Below are positions 4,771-14,175 of a DNA stretch of 64,000 bases, in pieces. Source of the stretch: an uncultured Fretibacterium sp. GTDB taxonomy: Bacteria; Synergistota; Synergistia; Synergistales; Aminobacteriaceae. Position 1 is the first letter of the stretch. Each line of letters starts with the position of its first letter. Location: positions 62,001 through 126,000 of the forward strand of contig CAMGZM010000002.1 of assembly GCA_946183145.1 (NCBI GenBank). The letters run 5' to 3'. The translations under genes and the position numbers were made by a program. Below the pieces are notes generated by a model. That model ran no database searches. It saw only the letters and a list, made by a program, of their open reading frames with translations, and was not told the origin of the DNA.

Positions 4771-5922
4771 ATGGGACAGAATAATTTTGCCAAATGGATA
4801 ACGATTCCGCCCATTGTCGCAATATTCACTGTGATGCTTGCGCGCACAATGGGAGCAGGAAGCATAGTAGGAGAAGTAGACCTCGCAATATGGGGGCTTG
4901 TCTGGCTTCTGTTTATCGTTATGAGCATACTTTACGGACTTTTTATCGTTCACGGCTTCAATATCGGGCTGATTTCCCTTCAGGCACTCGCACAGGGTGT
5001 ACTGCTTTGTCCGATGTCGATAACTTACGGCGCGAGAATGTTCCAGTGGCTAGGAGTCATCATAGCTGTTTGCGGAGGAGCCGCGCTTCTTGTCGCGTAC
5101 AATCAGGAAGAAAACGAACGCAACAAAGTTATCCCCGTTGAAGTTGAGAATGACGTGAAGAGAATCCCCGCTAATTTTGCGATAACAGACGACACAGGCG
5201 CAATACTCAACATCACAGAAGACATGCTTGACGTATTAGGCATAGACCGTATGTCATCAGTCGGGAAAAATATATCTGAATGGTTCAGCCCCGTCTCAAC
5301 TACAGCCGAAATCAACGGGAAAATCTGGGACATTGAGCGCAAAAGCATAGATGACGGAAAAAGATTCTATTTCGAGCTCCGGCCGAAAGGACTCCCAGTC
5401 TCAAACAATGACAGCAATAACAATGAGCCTTCAGCACCTGTTGAGTTCATAGACCCTGACACACAGCTTCACACGTACCGTTACGGAATGGCGAGAATCT
5501 CCGATGAGCTTTACAGGGCCGGGAGATACAACCATCCTGTCAGCGCGTTCATGATACGCATAGTATTCCCGCAATTACTGCCCGATGACAACATGGACAA
5601 ATACGTGAGTCCTTTCAGGGCATATTGCGCGAGGGTCATGAAGGACACAAGGCAGTCTGACACGGTGATACAGACAGGAGAATTTCAGATTATGGCGGTG
5701 CTTTCGGAATGCCCATATCAGATGGTCGAGAACATAATCGAGCGTCTTTCGTCAATCGTTAATGCGTTATGCCCGACGTTTGAAGAGTTCCTTCACGTTA
5801 CGGTTCTGAATGTCTATGAGACTTTCGAGGGAGGCACAAACCTTCCCACAGCGCAGGAGCTTGTAGACAAACTCACACAGCAGATGACGCGGAAATACTC
5901 CGCCACAGCATTATCACAATGA
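4771..5922 (+). CDS. membrane protein with PAS-like and degenerate GGDEF-like domains
   Basis: The 383-residue product has four predicted membrane helices in residues 1-110, then a PAS-like segment (about 130-200: FAITDDTGAILNITEDMLD), then a region that resembles a diguanylate cyclase domain (DPDTQLHTYRYGMARISDEL, RYNHPVSAFMIRI). The GG(D/E)EF site reads QTGEFQIM, so the catalytic glycines and acidic residues are missing and the domain is probably enzymatically dead. It sits one base after the DUF4139 gene and its stop overlaps the lptF start by 4 bases. I infer a regulatory or scaffolding role at the envelope, with low certainty about the ligand. Confidence 0.65.
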   Translation: MGQNNFAKWITIPPIVAIFTVMLARTMGAGSIVGEVDLAIWGLVWLLFIVMSILYGLFIVHGFNIGLISLQALAQGVLLCPMSITYGARMFQWLGVIIAVCGGAALLVAYNQEENERNKVIPVEVENDVKRIPANFAITDDTGAILNITEDMLDVLGIDRMSSVGKNISEWFSPVSTTAEINGKIWDIERKSIDDGKRFYFELRPKGLPVSNNDSNNNEPSAPVEFIDPDTQLHTYRYGMARISDELYRAGRYNHPVSAFMIRIVFPQLLPDDNMDKYVSPFRAYCARVMKDTRQSDTVIQTGEFQIMAVLSECPYQMVENIIERLSSIVNALCPTFEEFLHVTVLNVYETFEGGTNLPTAQELVDKLTQQMTRKYSATALSQ

Positions 5923-7022
5923 GAAGAAGTTTACTGAATAAATTAATACTCGGCGCATGTTCCGGGCCTTTTCTGTTCGGGATATTGATATTTGTGCTGA
6001 TATTTGTTGCGGGAGATTTACTGTTTCAGGCGGCACGGTTAATCATTGAGCAAGGTGTTTCGTTCAGCGTTGTAACACGGCTGTTCTTTTACCGTCTTCC
6101 TGAAGTAATTGTTATGACGATTCCTATGTCCTCGCTTTTGTCGACTCTTCTGGGAATGTCGACTCTTAACGGAGGGAGCGAGCTTATTGCGTTAAAGTCT
6201 CTTGGGATTCCTTTCACGAGAATATTGCGGCCTGTATTCTTTGCGTCAGTGATGATTTCATTGATAGGTTTCGGGCTGAATGAGACTGTTGTGCCATTCG
6301 GGGCGATTGCGGCGGACAGACTTATGAAGTTTGAGATAATGAAGCATCAGGCATCAGTGATACAAGAGAAAGTGTTTCTGCGTGATGAAGAGGACGGGAA
6401 ATTGAAGCGTGTGCTGTATATTGATGAGCTTGACCCGGATAAAGGTACTCTCAGCGGAATAATGATGCACGAGTTCGACGACAACGGAGCATTATCCCAC
6501 ACTCTTAACGCACGGCGGGGAATGTGGCGGGACTCTCAATGGTGGGTTGAGGACGGAAGAATGTACGACGTAGCAAGAGACGGTGAAATACGCCTGCTTT
6601 TACGTTTTGAGCGTCAGAGGCTTGCGCTGAAGATTTCCCCGGAGCAGTTGCAGAACAGCACAAGGCGGCCGGGAGATATGAGCGCACATGAATTATGGAG
6701 CTACATAAAGCAGATGGACGAAAAGAACTCTCAGCTCTCGCAGCTGTGGGTAATGTTCCACCTGAAGACGGCAGTCCCATGGGCGTGCGTGATAATGGCT
6801 GTGTTAGGTGCTTCATTCGGCGCGACAAGGCGGGGGCGTTCAGGCGGCGGAGTCGGTTTCGGGATAAGCGTTGTGATTGTCTTCGCGTATTATGTCGTTA
6901 TGTCATTGTGCAGGGCATTCGGCGAGGCTGGCGCGATTCCTCCGTTCATAGCGGGATGGGGGCCGAACATCGTATTTCTTTTCGCGGCGTTGTACTTTGC
7001 GCGGAGGGTTGACACGATTTGA
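5919..7022 (+). CDS. lptF: LPS export permease, LptF/LptG family
   Basis: LptF and LptG form the membrane part of the LptB2FG transporter that extracts LPS for transport to the outer membrane. The 367-residue product has the YjgP/YjgQ layout: membrane helices near residues 13-35, 55-77 and 97-118, a long periplasmic beta region (about 120-260), and three more helices near 275-365. The motif MTIPMSSLLSTLLGMS in helix 2 and GFGLNETVVP fit the family. It overlaps the upstream gene by ATGA and lpxI by TTGA. I cannot tell LptF from LptG securely; only one copy is in this window. Confidence 0.85.
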   Translation: MRRSLLNKLILGACSGPFLFGILIFVLIFVAGDLLFQAARLIIEQGVSFSVVTRLFFYRLPEVIVMTIPMSSLLSTLLGMSTLNGGSELIALKSLGIPFTRILRPVFFASVMISLIGFGLNETVVPFGAIAADRLMKFEIMKHQASVIQEKVFLRDEEDGKLKRVLYIDELDPDKGTLSGIMMHEFDDNGALSHTLNARRGMWRDSQWWVEDGRMYDVARDGEIRLLLRFERQRLALKISPEQLQNSTRRPGDMSAHELWSYIKQMDEKNSQLSQLWVMFHLKTAVPWACVIMAVLGASFGATRRGRSGGGVGFGISVVIVFAYYVVMSLCRAFGEAGAIPPFIAGWGPNIVFLFAALYFARRVDTI

Positions 7023-7828
7023 GCATCGCGCTTTTTGCCGGGAAAGGCGTGCTGCCTGTTGAGATTGCGCGTAAACTTTCTGGCGTTCAGGAGCGGGGGT
7101 TGATTCTGACTCTCGGCGCAGATGTTGACTCCCTGACTCCTTACGCCGGGAAGCTCATCATAATGAAGACTCCTAACTTGGGAAAAGCAATCCGCGAAAT
7201 AAAATCATACGGAGCAGACAAAGTAATCATGGCCGGAGTAGTCCCCAAAAAATTCATCTACTGCATACCGTTATTATTCGACTCGTTAAGCCGTAAAGTT
7301 TTACGCAGGACTCTTCATGATGATCATTCGTTATTAGGCTCAATAGTTGAAGCGTGCGAGGAAGCCGGAATAAAAGTTCTCCCGTACTGGCAGATTCTCC
7401 CGGAGTTTATAGCGTCATGCGGAAAATTGTCATCACGTCCGCCGTCAGAAAAAGAAATCTCTGACATAAATTATGCGCGTGAAATATTGCGCGTGATACT
7501 GCCTTGCTCATTCGGGCAGGGGGTTTGTGTTGCTGATGGAGCTGTCGTAGCTGTCGAGGCTATGGAGGGGACTGACAGAATGATTCAGCGTGCGGGCGAA
7601 ATTTCCGGGCGCGGCGTTGTCGTGAAGATGATGAAGCCGGGACAGGATATGCGGTACGATTTGCCGACAGTGGGAACTGTTACGCTTGAGAATATGCACA
7701 AAGCCGGACTCACATGCCTTGCTGTAGAAGCGGGGAAGACGTTAATACTTGAGCCGGATAAATTTTTTGCGCTCGCTGAGAGATATAACATTTCTGTGTG
7801 GGGGATAAATTATGCAGAAGAAATTTGA
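7019..7828 (+). CDS. lpxI: UDP-2,3-diacylglucosamine diphosphatase LpxI
   Basis: LpxI hydrolyses UDP-2,3-diacylglucosamine to lipid X in lipid A synthesis, replacing LpxH in many bacteria. The 269-residue product has the N-terminal FAGKGVLPVEIARKL signature and the C-terminal VAVEAMEGTDRMIQRAG motif, whose Asp is the conserved catalytic acid. The length matches the family. The start is a TTG overlapping the lptF stop (TTGA), a common coupling in this genome. It precedes the two symporters and lpxB, so the lipid A genes are split by transporter genes. Confidence 0.93.
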   Translation: MSIALFAGKGVLPVEIARKLSGVQERGLILTLGADVDSLTPYAGKLIIMKTPNLGKAIREIKSYGADKVIMAGVVPKKFIYCIPLLFDSLSRKVLRRTLHDDHSLLGSIVEACEEAGIKVLPYWQILPEFIASCGKLSSRPPSEKEISDINYAREILRVILPCSFGQGVCVADGAVVAVEAMEGTDRMIQRAGEISGRGVVVKMMKPGQDMRYDLPTVGTVTLENMHKAGLTCLAVEAGKTLILEPDKFFALAERYNISVWGINYAEEI

Positions 7829-9455
7829 CGCTGTGAATAATGACAGGGATTCGGCGTTGTCCAGTGCGCTCGAATATATACATGAACAGCTTGAAGCAAT
7901 GAAGCTGAAAACGAAAGACGCAGTACGCGCTGAATTAATGTGCGAGGAGTCATTAGTGAGCCTGATGAATCACGCAGATTTTTCCGTGCTGCCATATTTC
8001 AGCGTTAATGTGAGAAAAATTTTCGGAAATGTGATTATTGACCTGAAAGTACCCGGCCAAGAGTTTGAATTTTCCGGGACATCTGAAATTTCACCGCTGA
8101 AGGATAATGACGCTCTTCAAGAGTCTTACGAGTCAATTCAGCGTCTTGTGCTTCATTCGTTCATTCAGTACATAAGTTACAGGCATTCGGGGAAAATCAA
8201 CACTGTTCGGATCAATGCGGTTCTCTCTAATTATTCGGGGCTTTTCAAGACACTTACGGCGTTAATTCTCGCTGTTGTTTCGGGATTGCTCCTGAGAAAT
8301 TTTGCGCCTGAGTCTGTATCTTTGTTCCTCAACGATAATATTTTCGCGCCGATTCGCTCGGTGTTCCTTAACGGCCTTAAGATGTGCGTAATTCCAATAG
8401 TGTTCTGCTCTGTCGTTTCATGTATTGCGGACATGGGCGGACTTTCGGGAATCAAACAGGCAGGCGGGAAAATCATCAAGTATTTCATCATTGCCAATAT
8501 TATGGGACTCGCTGTCGGTTTGTGCATAATGTATATATTCAGGCCGGGCACGGGCGCGAACATGACGGCGGCATCATCTGAGACTGTGCAGACTCAAACG
8601 CTTTCATTAGCCGGGAATCTTGTGCACATTGTCGCAGGAAATATCGTCAGGCCGTTCCTTGAAGGTGATATGCTTCAGATAATGGCGATTGCGTTTTTTG
8701 TGGGACTGGCAATATCACTCACTGGCGCGAAAATGATACGGAAATTTTCTGATGAGATTAACATGATATTCATGAAGATAACAGAATTTTTCCTGTACCT
8801 TACGTACATTGTAGTGTTCTGTTCTATTGCCTCGATGATAATCACGACAGGAGCGGGGACTCTCTTTTCGGCGGCGGGCGTAATCTTCACGCTGATCGGC
8901 GGCCATGTCATAATCTTTGTGATTTTCTGTTTGGCCGTGAAATTCTCCGCGAAACTTAATCCCTTCACGATGATACGCAAATCCGTTCCCTTGCTCGCAA
9001 CGTCATTCAGCACATGCTCAAGCATAGCGGCAATTCCTGACGCGCTGAAATGTTCCGATGATATGGGAATACCGTCATCGCTGTATTCTTTCTCTGTCCC
9101 TTTAGGATTGTCATTAGGCAAAGCAGTAACACCGGTTTATTATTGGGTGATGGTTCTTTCGGCGGCAAATCTTTACGGCGTTGATATTGCTCCGTCATTA
9201 ATCGTCTCGCTTTCCGTAACAATTCTTCTTCTGTCAATCACAACTCCTGCGATGCCCGGCTCAGGGATAATATCTCTGTCAGTTCTTTTGACACAAGCCG
9301 GATGCCCCCTTGAGTTTATCGGATTGGCTGTGAGTATTGAGATGCTTACAGATTTTACTGCAACGATGGCAGTATCATTCGGAAATTTAGCCTGCACACT
9401 TCTTGCGGCGGCTGATGACAATATTCTTGACCGCGATAAATATAACCGTCCATAA
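7812..9455 (+). CDS. DAACS-type cation symporter with N-terminal ATPase-like domain (copy 1)
   Basis: The 547-residue product has two parts. Residues about 145-540 form a dicarboxylate/amino acid:cation symporter with many membrane helices, a FSTCSSIAAIPDALKC segment equivalent to the serine-rich re-entrant loop, and a GxPGSGIIS-like C-terminal loop. The usual NMDGT motif is not visible; the matching stretch is AANLYGVD, so the substrate may differ. Residues 1-135 resemble a GHKL/anti-sigma-factor kinase fold (AELMCEESLVSLMNHADF, then DVIIDLKVPG-like strands), but the ATP-binding Asn is not clearly placed. The gene overlaps lpxI by 17 bases and is followed by a paralogue. Confidence 0.8.
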   Translation: MQKKFDAVNNDRDSALSSALEYIHEQLEAMKLKTKDAVRAELMCEESLVSLMNHADFSVLPYFSVNVRKIFGNVIIDLKVPGQEFEFSGTSEISPLKDNDALQESYESIQRLVLHSFIQYISYRHSGKINTVRINAVLSNYSGLFKTLTALILAVVSGLLLRNFAPESVSLFLNDNIFAPIRSVFLNGLKMCVIPIVFCSVVSCIADMGGLSGIKQAGGKIIKYFIIANIMGLAVGLCIMYIFRPGTGANMTAASSETVQTQTLSLAGNLVHIVAGNIVRPFLEGDMLQIMAIAFFVGLAISLTGAKMIRKFSDEINMIFMKITEFFLYLTYIVVFCSIASMIITTGAGTLFSAAGVIFTLIGGHVIIFVIFCLAVKFSAKLNPFTMIRKSVPLLATSFSTCSSIAAIPDALKCSDDMGIPSSLYSFSVPLGLSLGKAVTPVYYWVMVLSAANLYGVDIAPSLIVSLSVTILLLSITTPAMPGSGIISLSVLLTQAGCPLEFIGLAVSIEMLTDFTATMAVSFGNLACTLLAAADDNILDRDKYNRP

Positions 9456-9481
9456 AAATTTTCACAGAAAGAGGCTCTAAT

Positions 9482-11122
9482 ATGCAACAAAAATTTACGG
9501 TGAATGACTCTGACAGCAGGGAAGCCTTAACGGGCGCGCTCGGATTCATTCGTGAAAAGCTCGGTGAAATGAAGCTCAACGAGAAAGACATTAACCGCGC
9601 GGAATTGATGTGCGAGGAGTCGTTATTGACTCTTCTGAAACGCGCTGACTTTTCACGGCTGAAACATTTTGCTGTTGACGTGAGAAAATCATTCGGCGAT
9701 GTGATTATTGACCTCAGAGTCCCCGGTGATGATTTTGATTTTTACGGGAATGCAGAAGTCCCATACCGCTCCGATGATGATGAGCTTCAAGAGACGCAGG
9801 AGGCAGTACAGAGTCTTCTTCTGAGATCGTTCAGCCGCTTCTTGAGGTACAAGCATTACCGGCGGTTTAACTCTGTGAGAATCAAAGCTCTTCTCTCGAA
9901 TTATTCCGGGCTGTACAAGATACTGACAATATCATTCCTCGCAGTTGTTACAGGATTCGCGCTGAGAAATTTTTTCCAGGAGTCTGTATACATGGCCGTA
10001 AACGATAACATATTCGCGCCGATTCGCACTGTATTCATGAACGGCTTGAAGATGTGTGCTGTACCTGTTGTGCTTTTCTCGATAATAACATGCCTTTCAG
10101 GGATGGGAAATGCGTCAGGGATTCGGAAATCGGGCGGAAGACTCTTGAAGTACATTCTTCTGTTTCAAGTCGTAAGCACTGTTATAGCTTTCGGACTCAT
10201 GTACGTATTCAGGCCGGGCGCGGGAGTCGAAATGATTGCGTCAAAAGTTGAGACTGTGCAGGGTGAATCGGTGTCATTGATGGGAATGCTGATGAACTTA
10301 GTCCCGGCGAATCTCATACGGCCGCTGCTTGAAGGCGACATGCTTCAAATTATGGTTATCGCGGTGATTCTGGGAATCTCTGTCGGCATGGCTGGCGCGA
10401 AAATCCTGCGTGATGTTTTCGGGGAACTTACAGCGGTTTTCATGAGGGCGACAAGAATATTCATGATCATCGTTCCTCTTGCTATATTCTGCTCTGTTGC
10501 CTCGATGACAATCACAACGGGGGTTGATACTCTTCTGTCAGTGCTGGGAATAATTCTGACTCTCATTGCCGGGTATATTCTGCTCAACATATTTTTCTGC
10601 ATTGCCGTGAAACTCCGCACAGGATTAAGCCCTTTCGTTATGCTGAGAAAATCAATGCCAATGATAATAACGGCTTTCAGCACATGTTCAAGCATCGCAA
10701 CGATTCCAGACGGAATGAAGTGCTGTGATGACATGGGAATATCACAGAAAATTTACGCCCTCTCGATCCCTCTTTGCACGTCGATATGCAAGGCCGCTTT
10801 TCCCATAACGTTCACAGTATTTACGCTTTCGGCTGCAAATATGTACGGTGTGAATTTGTCCGCGTCAACAATGATTTCTCTTGCGTTCTCAATAATCGTT
10901 CTGACAATCTCAACACCCGGACTCCCCGGCGCGTGTGTAATAGCAATGTCGGCATTACTCACACAGGCAGGCTGCCCGCTCGATTTTATTGGAATAGTTC
11001 TCAGTCTTCAGGCAATAGAAGACTTGTTCAACACTCCCACAACTTGCATGGGAAATATTGCGTGTACGATTATTGCGGCTGACGGAGGGAATCTCATCAA
11101 CAAGGGAAAATATAACTCATGA
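9482..11122 (+). CDS. DAACS-type cation symporter with N-terminal ATPase-like domain (copy 2)
   Basis: This is a tandem paralogue of the preceding gene with the same 546-residue plan. Residues 1-135 repeat the GHKL-like segment (AELMCEESLLTLLKRADF) and the rest is the symporter (FSTCSSIATIPDGMKCCDD, AANMYGVNLS in place of NMDGT). Blocks such as the NDNIFAPIR segment and the DMLQIM segment are nearly identical between copies, while other parts diverge widely, so the duplication is not recent. AAAGAGG precedes the ATG. Its stop overlaps the lpxB start by ATGA, so it belongs to the lipid A operon. Substrate unknown. Confidence 0.8.
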   Translation: MQQKFTVNDSDSREALTGALGFIREKLGEMKLNEKDINRAELMCEESLLTLLKRADFSRLKHFAVDVRKSFGDVIIDLRVPGDDFDFYGNAEVPYRSDDDELQETQEAVQSLLLRSFSRFLRYKHYRRFNSVRIKALLSNYSGLYKILTISFLAVVTGFALRNFFQESVYMAVNDNIFAPIRTVFMNGLKMCAVPVVLFSIITCLSGMGNASGIRKSGGRLLKYILLFQVVSTVIAFGLMYVFRPGAGVEMIASKVETVQGESVSLMGMLMNLVPANLIRPLLEGDMLQIMVIAVILGISVGMAGAKILRDVFGELTAVFMRATRIFMIIVPLAIFCSVASMTITTGVDTLLSVLGIILTLIAGYILLNIFFCIAVKLRTGLSPFVMLRKSMPMIITAFSTCSSIATIPDGMKCCDDMGISQKIYALSIPLCTSICKAAFPITFTVFTLSAANMYGVNLSASTMISLAFSIIVLTISTPGLPGACVIAMSALLTQAGCPLDFIGIVLSLQAIEDLFNTPTTCMGNIACTIIAADGGNLINKGKYNS

Positions 11123-12249
11123 AAATTTTTGTGTCATGCGGTGAAGTCAGCGGAGATATTTACGCGGGGGGATTCATTCGCGAGGCCCTGAAGATTTCAC
11201 CGTCAGCAGAAATTTCCGGCATGTTAGGCCCTGAAAGCGTGAAAGCAGGGGGAGTAATGAGATGGAGTTATGACGAGCTGAAGTTGATGGGACTGCTTGA
11301 GATTATCCCGGCGATTCCGAGAATATTGCGGCTGAAGAAGGAAATTGCACGCGAAATTATGAGGGAAAATCCTGAGTCAGTTGTTCTTGTTGACAGCCCG
11401 GACTTTCATTTGATGTTGGCAAAAACTCTCAGGAAATCGGGGTATTCAGGGAAAATTATTTCTCTGAGTCCTCCTACTGTTTGGGCGTGGCGTTCAGGAA
11501 GAGTACGCAATCTCAAACGTGATTTTGATTTGTGCCTGCCGTTATTCTCGTTTGAGCATGAATATTTACGTGAACACGGCGTAAAATCGCTGTGGAAGTC
11601 CCACCCTCTTGTGCATGAAATGAAGGGCGTGAAAATTTCTGACTCATTCGCAAAACGATTCGGCCATGAAAAAATTATCGCGTTAATGCCTGGGAGCAGG
11701 CACTACGATATACGTTTTCACCTCGATATATTAATCGGAACGGCTGAAATTCTGCGGTCAAAAGGATATTTGCCGGTGTTCTCTGTTGCTGAAGGACTGA
11801 ATACGAATCTTGCTGATGAAGTGCGTGAACGCGTGAGTGATTCGGGCTTTGAGTATTGGGACGGAAGCGGGCGCGAGCTGATGATGGGTTCGCTTGCTGT
11901 TGCGGGCGTATCGGGCACTGTGTCGGTTGAAGCGATGATGCTCGGAAAATTCATGACGGTGATCTACAACATGAGGCGTATAAACTATGCGATTCTGAAA
12001 AGGCTCGTGCGCGTGAAAAACATCTCAATCCCGAACATGCTGACCGACAAAATAATTTACCCCGAACTGCTGTGTGATTCCGCGACTCCTGAGAGAATTA
12101 CGCATGAGCTTGAACGTTATCTTGATGACGAAAATATGAAGCGTGAGATTGACTCTGCACTCCAAAAAGCGCGCGCTTCAATGGGAGATTCAAACGCCGC
12201 GAAATTTTGGGCAGAATGCGTTTTGAGTCGCAAGTGCCTTAATGCTTAA
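11119..12249 (+). CDS. lpxB: lipid-A-disaccharide synthase LpxB
   Basis: LpxB (GT19) joins lipid X and UDP-diacylglucosamine into lipid A disaccharide. The 376-residue product starts with FVSCGEVSGDIYAGG, the LpxB N-terminal nucleotide-binding signature, and has VLVDSPDFHL, SPPTVWAWRSGRV and LMPGSR, all typical. The length fits. Its ATG overlaps the upstream symporter stop. It is the last gene of the envelope operon; the gap after it contains a new promoter for the nickel operon. No clear hairpin terminator was seen. Confidence 0.95.
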   Translation: MKIFVSCGEVSGDIYAGGFIREALKISPSAEISGMLGPESVKAGGVMRWSYDELKLMGLLEIIPAIPRILRLKKEIAREIMRENPESVVLVDSPDFHLMLAKTLRKSGYSGKIISLSPPTVWAWRSGRVRNLKRDFDLCLPLFSFEHEYLREHGVKSLWKSHPLVHEMKGVKISDSFAKRFGHEKIIALMPGSRHYDIRFHLDILIGTAEILRSKGYLPVFSVAEGLNTNLADEVRERVSDSGFEYWDGSGRELMMGSLAVAGVSGTVSVEAMMLGKFMTVIYNMRRINYAILKRLVRVKNISIPNMLTDKIIYPELLCDSATPERITHELERYLDDENMKREIDSALQKARASMGDSNAAKFWAECVLSRKCLNA

Positions 12250-12336: not shown

Positions 12337-13119
12337 ATGCCTAAACGTGTAATCATTCTTTCGTTAATTCTCGCGCTTGTATCATTCCCGGCATTTTCAC
12401 ACGAGCTTACGATCAAAGCACACAACACGGCCATGAAGGAAGGCGAGTCATTCCCTGTTACCGTTCAGTCATCGCACAAGTTCATAGTCCCGGAAGAAGT
12501 CGAAATCCTCGAACGCGTAAAAGCAGGAATCATTGAGGACGGAAAATTTGTACCCTCCGAACTCAAAGCGAACGAGAAAAATTTGTGCATAGATTTCACC
12601 GTAACACCAAAAGATTTATCGCAGTCAGTGATTCTTGTTGCGACAAAAGACGGCGAGTCATGGTGCGTAACAAATGAGGGCGGGAAATCAGGAGCGCGAA
12701 AAGATTTAGAGGCTCAAGGACTCAAAGTTTTATCCGCAAACAAATACGACAAGTACGCAAAGGCAATCTTCAACACGTCGCATGATGACAAAAATTTTGC
12801 GTTCGCTGTCGGTCATCCGCTGGAAATTATTCCCGTAACGAATCCTTTTGACGCAAGGCCGGGGGACTTCATGACGGTGAAAATATTGCTGAACGGTCAG
12901 CCTTACACCGGGCCGGTATGGGCGACATATGACGGATTTGTTACGGAGTACGAGAACACATACGCGTATTACACCGAAGCGGAGAACGGAGAAGCGCACG
13001 TGAAAATCACATCACCGGGCTGGTGGGGAATAAGGGCATCGCAGACAGGACTCCCCGGTGTCGAGGGTGATTATGATCATCTCAATTTGCGCTCGTTCCT
13101 TCTGTTTGAAGTGAAATGA
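12337..13119 (+). CDS. nikK: periplasmic DUF4198 component of nickel ECF importer (NikK-like)
   Basis: The 260-residue product has a signal peptide ending at AFS, giving a mature chain that starts HELTIKAH. It then shows the DUF4198 fold seen in proteins encoded beside CbiM/NikM importers (EIIPVTNPFDARPGDFMTVKI-type block; GWWGIRAS near the end). In the comparative genomics of nickel and cobalt ECF transporters, this protein is called NikK and marks a nickel system. The His-rich N-terminus could hold metal. It overlaps the next gene by 4 bases in a five-gene operon. Confidence 0.75.
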   Translation: MPKRVIILSLILALVSFPAFSHELTIKAHNTAMKEGESFPVTVQSSHKFIVPEEVEILERVKAGIIEDGKFVPSELKANEKNLCIDFTVTPKDLSQSVILVATKDGESWCVTNEGGKSGARKDLEAQGLKVLSANKYDKYAKAIFNTSHDDKNFAFAVGHPLEIIPVTNPFDARPGDFMTVKILLNGQPYTGPVWATYDGFVTEYENTYAYYTEAENGEAHVKITSPGWWGIRASQTGLPGVEGDYDHLNLRSFLLFEVK

Positions 13120-13586
13120 AGGGAAAAATTTTCGTCAGGCTGGCTTTCACCGCTGGCCTGTTTCTTTTGCTGACGGGGGAAATTTTTGCGCATGGGACTG
13201 GTTACCGTCATTCGCAGTTTGAAGCCGTTGCGCTTGAGTTCATGTATTCAACCGGGGAAGCAATGAGCTACAGAGAAGCCCGCGTGTTTTCTCCGAACGA
13301 TGAAAAGTTTTCATACCAGTCAGGAAGAACAGACGAGAAAGGGAGATTTGCGTTTGTACCAGATACGCCGGGGAAATGGCGCGTAATCGTCCGTGATGAG
13401 GAAGGCCACCAATGCACAGCCGAAATCAACATTACAGCGGAAAATCTCAATCCCAAAAACGAACCGCAGACTCACAATCAGCAGTCAACAATCTTAAACA
13501 GCTATGAAATTTTCATGCGTTCATTGCTCGGAGTGAGTCTAATCTTCAACATTGCGTTAATCATCAGGAGGAGTCATGCACATTAG
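13116..13586 (+). CDS. nikL: NikL-like membrane-anchored component of nickel ECF importer
   Basis: The 156-residue product has a signal peptide (cleavage likely after IFA, mature start HGTGYRHS), a small periplasmic beta domain (about 30-105) resembling carboxypeptidase-regulatory-like folds, and a C-terminal membrane helix near 132-150 ending RRSHAH. NikL proteins in NikM-type importers have this plan. The gene overlaps nikK by 4 bases, and nikM starts inside its last codons. Like NikK, its predicted mature N-terminus is His, which may be functional. Confidence 0.7.
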   Translation: MKGKIFVRLAFTAGLFLLLTGEIFAHGTGYRHSQFEAVALEFMYSTGEAMSYREARVFSPNDEKFSYQSGRTDEKGRFAFVPDTPGKWRVIVRDEEGHQCTAEINITAENLNPKNEPQTHNQQSTILNSYEIFMRSLLGVSLIFNIALIIRRSHAH

Positions 13587-14175
13587 CGAGGGAATATTAT
13601 CGGGCGGCGTTCTTGCTCTCGGCTGGGCGGGAACAGTCGCGGGAGTCTCTTACGGTCTCAAGAAAACGAATCCCGACAGAATCATTCAGACGGCGTTAAT
13701 ATCGTCAGCGTTTTTCCTTGCGTCCCTCGTGAATATCCGTATAGGCCCGTCATCGACTCACATGACTCTTCTTGCGCCGATGGGACTCATTCTCGGCCAT
13801 GCTGTATTTCCGGCTGTGTTCACGGCGTTATTGCTTCAGGCGTTATTGTTCGGTTTCGGGGGGATTCTCGTTCTTGGCGTTAATACGTTCGTGATGGCTT
13901 CTGCGTCTCTTGCTGTGTATGTGATATTCGGGCGTGCGATTCGTGAAAGCTCAGGAAGGACTCGCGTTATCGTGCTGTCATTCATGGCCGGGGCGTTTGC
14001 TGTGATTATTGCGGCTGTGATTGCGGGAATGTTCCTGATTATGACGGACTCGGATTTTGCCGGAGCTGTGAAAATTTTGCTGATTGCGCATATTCCTGTT
14101 GCAATCGTTGAAGGGGCTGTAACATCATTCCTTGTGATTTGGCTGAAGAGATCAGTGCCCGAATTTCTGTCATGA
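13576..14175 (+). CDS. nikM: ECF importer substrate-binding membrane protein NikM/CbiM
   Basis: NikM/CbiM is the S-component that binds Ni2+ or Co2+ through its extreme N-terminus. The 199-residue product begins MHISEGILSG: Met1 and His2 are the metal ligands of the family. It has about six membrane helices and a GPSSTHMTLLAPMGLILG block typical of the family. AGGAGG precedes the ATG and the start overlaps nikL by 11 bases. Nickel is preferred over cobalt here because NikK and NikL homologues are present and no cobalamin gene is nearby; this is inference. Confidence 0.88.
   Translation: MHISEGILSGGVLALGWAGTVAGVSYGLKKTNPDRIIQTALISSAFFLASLVNIRIGPSSTHMTLLAPMGLILGHAVFPAVFTALLLQALLFGFGGILVLGVNTFVMASASLAVYVIFGRAIRESSGRTRVIVLSFMAGAFAVIIAAVIAGMFLIMTDSDFAGAVKILLIAHIPVAIVEGAVTSFLVIWLKRSVPEFLS

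Follow-up and report, generated by a model that had tools for sequence, protein, structure and literature searches.

SLC1-type transporters fused to a GHKL-like N-terminal domain at the lpxI–lpxB junction of Fretibacterium

In a 64,000-nt stretch of DNA from an uncultured Fretibacterium sp. of the Synergistota (GCA_946183145.1, contig CAMGZM010000002.1, positions 62,001 to 126,000; hereafter the window), we identified two neighbouring genes that each encode a transporter of the SLC1 (DAACS) family preceded by a domain resembling the GHKL-type anti-sigma kinases. We propose, with a probability of about 0.55, that these fusions are sodium-independent SLC1-type carriers under a protein-binding pseudo-GHKL regulatory domain. 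An open reading frame (ORF) check agreed with the coordinates, lengths and + strand given for the two genes in a preliminary description of the window: fusion 1 spans 7812-9455 (547 aa) and fusion 2 spans 9482-11122 (546 aa). PF00375 matched residues 145-533 of fusion 1 (E 4e-76) and 146-533 of fusion 2 (E 5e-75), in both cases over profile positions 3-385 of 387, i.e. a full-length SLC1/DAACS match. This bears out the described DAACS transporter behind an N-terminal extension, which is ∼143 residues long in each protein. The N-terminal domain (N-domain; residues 1-143) is encoded at 7812..8240 in fusion 1 and 9482..9910 in fusion 2, and the transporter domain at 8241..9455 and 9911..11122, respectively. 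The two proteins are 49-50% identical (53% between their N-domains, on which, with the motif counts below, the assignment in fusion 2 is based), and the nearest named record to fusion 1 is from an uncultured Fretibacterium metagenome-assembled genome (87% identity). We found no report of a GHKL domain fused to an SDF (PF00375) transporter in the literature, of which open papers were covered.

A GHKL-like domain that has lost its nucleotide motifs

The N-domain of the window copies received no name from Pfam or NCBIfam. An AlphaFold model built from an alignment of 39 relatives (predicted local distance difference test score, 84; predicted without partners) matched SpoIIAB (1tid) in Foldseek with E 1.7e-5, and in VIA-align it aligned with UsfX (8ih8_D) at Z 13.4 and 2.3 Å over 117 residues and with SpoIIAB (1th8_A) at Z 12.2. 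The best structural matches were anti-sigma kinases (UsfX/RsbW and SpoIIAB). At the sequence level, 12 of the 39 relatives matched PF13581 (HATPase_c_2; best E 1.4e-6), and an N-domain profile retrieved RsbW-type and SpoIIE-linked domains of the same genus (E 1e-11 to 1e-4), with a probability of 97.7 in a profile–profile comparison. Neither the N-domain profile nor an intact RsbW homologue from the genus found a match among PDB sequences, and so the structural link to GHKL proteins rests on the model. The preliminary description had suggested a GHKL/anti-sigma kinase fold around an AELMCEESL motif; this motif is present in both proteins and corresponds to the N-box, and the structure prediction and fold search proposed as a check upheld the relationship. 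Together, the model, the sequence profile and the profile–profile comparison support a predicted GHKL fold related to the SpoIIAB/RsbW anti-sigma kinases. The domain is not a general feature of DAACS proteins, since 30 non-fused SDF loci had frames of 404-519 aa in which the sites are canonical.

The motifs of this domain were counted by aligning 51 fusions with intact kinases of the same genus. The N-box Glu at the catalytic position (Glu46; codon 7947..7949 in fusion 1) and the G1 Gly were kept in 51/51 fusions, and Gly82 was likewise invariant. In contrast, the Mg-binding Asn of the N-box was kept in only two of the 51, the adenine-contacting G1 Asp in none and the G2 glycines in 0-4, whereas the real kinases of the genus retain all these residues. 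The fusions therefore belong to the GHKL superfamily by fold and fall outside the active anti-sigma kinases through loss of the N-box Asn, the G1 Asp and the G2 glycines. On these counts we rejected an active ATPase. With each of the three nucleotide motifs gone, the earlier term 'ATPase-like' is unsupported if it implies that ATP is used. By sequence the N-domain is a pseudo-ATPase, and we infer that it does not bind nucleotide; being enzymatically dead, it would work by binding proteins alone.

Rewritten sodium and substrate sites in the transporter domain

The full-length model of fusion 1 superposed on inward-facing GltPh (6x13) with a root-mean-square deviation of 2.3 Å (Foldseek TMt 0.87), which identifies an elevator transporter fold, and the serine of hairpin 1 (HP1) was kept in 50/51 fusions. 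Residues were mapped by alignment against GltTk together with a family alignment, and GltPh numbering is used here. The two window copies carry F/I at Y89, A/F at T92, N/Q at S93, G/C at N310, K at M311, A at D312, A/N at R397, V/T at N401 and N at D405, while D394 and T398 are unchanged. As described previously, the usual NMDGT motif is absent, and its equivalents are GKAVT in fusion 1 and CKAAF in fusion 2. The Na1 and Na3 residues and the Arg that binds acidic side chains are thus lost, and the window copies lack the residue set of a sodium-coupled SLC1 transporter (Y89, T92, S93, N310, D312, N401 and D405). Across the 51 fusions, N310 was kept in 20, D312 in six, R397 in seven and D405 in five, and position 311 was Lys in 38. 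By comparison, non-fused SDF proteins from the same taxonomic family kept all 13 canonical residues tested (30/30), these 30 being the best-scoring ones, with more divergent non-fused copies at L002 and L033. Proton-coupled Ext-H transporters have the signature T92[A/L/I/V/M/F], M311L and D405N (PMC12668577); the window copies fit its T92 and D405N parts, but have Lys rather than Leu at 311. An off-locus subclade of fusions (L040, L041, L042, L043 and L072) has Leu at 311 and a small or hydrophobic residue at D405 (SLDGV, SLDAA), and is nearer to the proton-coupled M311L signature; its L043 copy adjoins MatE, Fe-ADH and flavodoxin genes.

A basic residue at 311 was associated with an acidic residue at 394, which was present in 38/39 fusions with the former and in 1/12 without it. 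Among 536 columns, D394 ranked first in its association with 311. On the tree there were four independent contrasts, of which ∼3 ran in the same direction and none in the opposite one. In the window these residues are Lys437 (codons 9120..9122 in fusion 1 and 10790..10792 in fusion 2) and Asp514 (9351..9353 and 11021..11023). M311 of GltPh is part of the NMD loop, which is located where substrate and ions bind, and the amino group of the substrate is held by D394 (PMC12668577). Given these roles, the Lys437–Asp514 pair could replace both the ion and the substrate amine.

All fusions formed one clade in a tree of the SDF domain (support 100/99), and this clade held when the trait columns were removed. 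Strong matches to the N-domain among 188 Synergistota genomes came only from Fretibacterium and one sister genus; many of the genomes analysed are draft metagenome assemblies. On 584 plasmids from ∼100 genera there were 745 SDF places, none of which covered 80% of a fusion query. Copies that branch near the clade's base and those of the sister genus keep NMDGS or NMHGT together with R397, N401 and D405. From the position of these near-canonical copies, loss of the sodium sites probably took place inside the fusion clade.

Insertion and exchange at the lpxI–lpxB junction

In agreement with the preliminary description, the fusions lie between lpxI (7019..7828; PF06230 and PF17930) and lpxB (11119..12249; PF02684), downstream of an lptF/lptG permease gene (5919..7022; PF03739, E 1e-91, and synteny), all on the + strand. 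The overlapping starts and stops reported there occur at the outer borders, where lpxI overlaps fusion 1 by 17 nt and fusion 2 overlaps lpxB by 4 nt (ATGA), but not between the fusions, which are 26 nt apart. Further upstream, the window encodes a 383-aa membrane protein (4771-5922) that is constant in the gene order; its C-terminal part is GGDEF-like by eye, and Pfam gave no match.

The fusions had also been tied to lipopolysaccharide (LPS) synthesis through operon structure, with a survey of the lpxI-x-x-lpxB order as a check. One to three fusion genes occupy the junction in ∼20 Fretibacterium species, but lpxI and lpxB stand without an insert in 16 other species of the genus and at 21 loci of other genera. 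In the sister genus, lpxB directly follows lpxI and the fusions are located elsewhere. The ancestral order is therefore lpxI–lpxB, into which the fusion genes were inserted. Copies at the lpx locus form a clade of 28 rows (support 99/97), one member of which (L067) lies elsewhere, and fusions away from lpx adjoin unrelated genes (flavodoxin, Fe-ADH, MatE, DnaJ, DcuC-like and radical-SAM). The fusions thus lack the constant presence with lpxI–lpxB across the lineage that marks a lipid A gene; a functional tie to LPS synthesis is weakly supported, and the link is positional only.

Each window copy belongs to a separate supported subclade, and both subclades occur in several species. The duplication noted previously is therefore real but old, and the tree rules out a recent tandem event. 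The ratio of nonsynonymous to synonymous changes (pN/pS) was 0.16-0.38 in both domains, which indicates purifying selection on the window copies and led us to reject their being pseudogenes. At one other locus (L156:2515-2961), a 148-aa in-frame remnant with the start and C-terminal part of a fusion lies between lpxI and lpxB. Internally shortened fusions (L036:7995, 440 aa; L074:3818, 460 aa) were found either beside intact copies or as the only fusion at the lpx locus.

In several species pairs, the insert had diverged far less at synonymous sites than its flanks. Between L056 and L058 this divergence was 0.22 in the insert versus 1.15-1.65 in the flanks, and between the window and L106 it was 0.18 and 0.36 versus 0.80-0.98 in lptF, lpxI and lpxB; the difference was smaller between the window and L056 (0.94 versus 1.13-1.86 in the same three genes). 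Nucleotide identity between L056 and L058 rose from 59-80% to 85-95% over the insert, then fell to 72-76% in lpxB. The low divergence and the identity steps at its ends demonstrate that the insert was exchanged between Fretibacterium species more recently than its neighbours. Codon bias as the sole cause is disfavoured, since the insert/flank ratio differs by species pair and identity changes stepwise at the ends. Downstream of lpxB, the DUF4198 and CbiM genes (12337-14175) also showed low synonymous divergence, 0.37-0.50, versus L036 and L106; exchange may therefore extend beyond the fusion genes.

Proposed mechanism, alternatives and related systems

In the mechanism that we propose, the N-domain would lie on the cytoplasmic side, where SLC1 topology places the N-terminus. 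A small solute would be moved by the elevator mechanism without sodium coupling, by exchange or facilitated transport, and the Lys437–Asp514 pair would supply from within the protein the positive charge for which GltPh relies on bound sodium and the amino group of its substrate. As a protein-binding handle, the dead GHKL domain would tune the carrier; its SpoIIAB/RsbW-type relatives bind STAS antagonists and sigma factors. The position in the lpx operon would provide expression and no role in LPS. There is precedent for sodium-independent SLC1 exchange in a reconstructed ancestor (PMC12668577), and SLC26 and MlaFB offer one for transporter control by STAS, the partner of such kinases (PMC8256260, PMC7367683). 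Several observations weigh against this proposal. No conserved neighbour gene pointing to a partner of the GHKL domain was identified among the fusion loci. The Lys–Asp counts come from related sequences and are inflated by that relatedness, and four contrasts are too few for significance (sign test; P = 0.25). Finally, the substrate pocket varies widely among clades, which also fits a loss of transport. More tentatively, the fusions could be cation-independent elevators (or receptors) in which Lys437–Asp514 replaces sodium and the substrate amino group, controlled by a dead anti-sigma kinase domain through partner switching by the GHKL half, a mirror of STAS on SLC26. In the sister genus, a GHKL–SDF fusion adjoins a HAMP–SpoIIE–HATPase_c_2 gene, a possible partner (L108:3354-5408 / L108:5574-7238).

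The main rival, which we consider unlikely, is a receptor in which the SLC1 fold binds a ligand without transport and signals to the pseudo-GHKL domain, which in turn would either free or retain a STAS protein or sigma factor. The loss of coupling residues fits such a receptor, as do the partner switching by which GHKL relatives work (PMC8256260), the free RsbW-type protein and the STAS proteins encoded in the genome of the window, and the SpoIIE–GHKL gene at L108. However, the fusions still have the HP1 serines and an inward-facing elevator fold, and transport residues are near-canonical in the copies that branch close to the clade's base. We give less credence to a structural appendage that only aids folding, trimer stability or membrane targeting. 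This would suit a dead nucleotide site, and STAS domains on SLC26 carriers are reportedly necessary for stability (PMC8256260), but the invariance of Glu46 and Gly82 over diverse proteins suggests a more specific role, although structural constraint could also explain it.

Other explanations are very unlikely. Direct service to lipid A/LPS synthesis, e.g. by moving a precursor or by-product, would account for a gene kept between lpxI and lpxB in ∼20 species and for the single clade of lpx copies, but it conflicts with the many junctions without an insert, the unrelated neighbours of sister copies and the location of L067. An insert that is drifting or selfish and does nothing for the host is still less probable: the variable copy number, the shortened copies, the L156 remnant and the exchange between species are as expected for one, but purifying selection on both domains and the conservation of Lys311–Asp394 and Glu46 are not. 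Least probable of all is the previously suggested sensor-transporter, in which the ATPase or kinase domain would be active; the GHKL fold and conserved Glu speak for it, and the missing Asn, Asp and glycines, which kinases of the genus keep, speak against it.

The carrier that we propose shares its fold, HP1 serines and elevator architecture with GltPh and GltTk (PF00375), but differs in its extra N-domain, the loss of Na1/Na3 residues, the usual loss of Arg397 and the Lys at Met311. The best PDB sequence match of the fusion transporter is AncInt (9bgz, 9bh0), a sodium-uncoupled ancestral aspartate transporter, and in the Ext-Int clade the full set of sodium residues is kept in only 16% of sequences (PMC12668577). 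Unlike the fusions, AncInt, which was reconstructed from Bacillota sequences, keeps the sodium residues, Met311 and Arg397, and neither a fused domain nor Lys311 is described for it (PMC12668577). SpoIIAB, RsbW and UsfX (PF13581, GHKL) have the fold and N-box Glu of the N-domain, which differs from them in its lost nucleotide motifs and its attachment to a membrane transporter. A partner-switching-type domain on or with a transporter also occurs in SLC26/SulP carriers, as a STAS domain, and in MlaFB, as a STAS subunit (PMC8256260, PMC7367683), but these systems carry the STAS side, whereas the fusions carry the GHKL side on a different transporter fold.

Three unrelated transporter families of Synergistota (SDF, ABC and MATE) include members with an attached GHKL domain. 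A polar amino acid ABC ATPase with a C-terminal degenerate GHKL domain, in which the N-box Glu is kept and the Asn is replaced by Glu, is encoded at L116:4418-5797 and L142:448-1827 (the window's own genome, G000:C1 ∼189 kb); the same architecture occurs in L121, L123, L134, L135 and L136, and adjoins a BPD_transp_1 permease and an SBP_bac_3 protein. At L140:64-1869 (G000:C25) and L129:3065-4798, a HATPase_c_2 domain forms the C-terminal part of MATE-family transporters, and in L130 a free RsbW-like gene precedes the relative.

The fusions join anti-sigma-type GHKL domains and secondary transporters, which are not reported together in the literature searched. Loss of sodium coupling in SLC1 transporters is an actively studied question, and the fusion clade offers naturally graded stages in a single bacterial family, from NMDGS and NMHGT copies to fully rewritten sites, in which a lysine may replace the ion.

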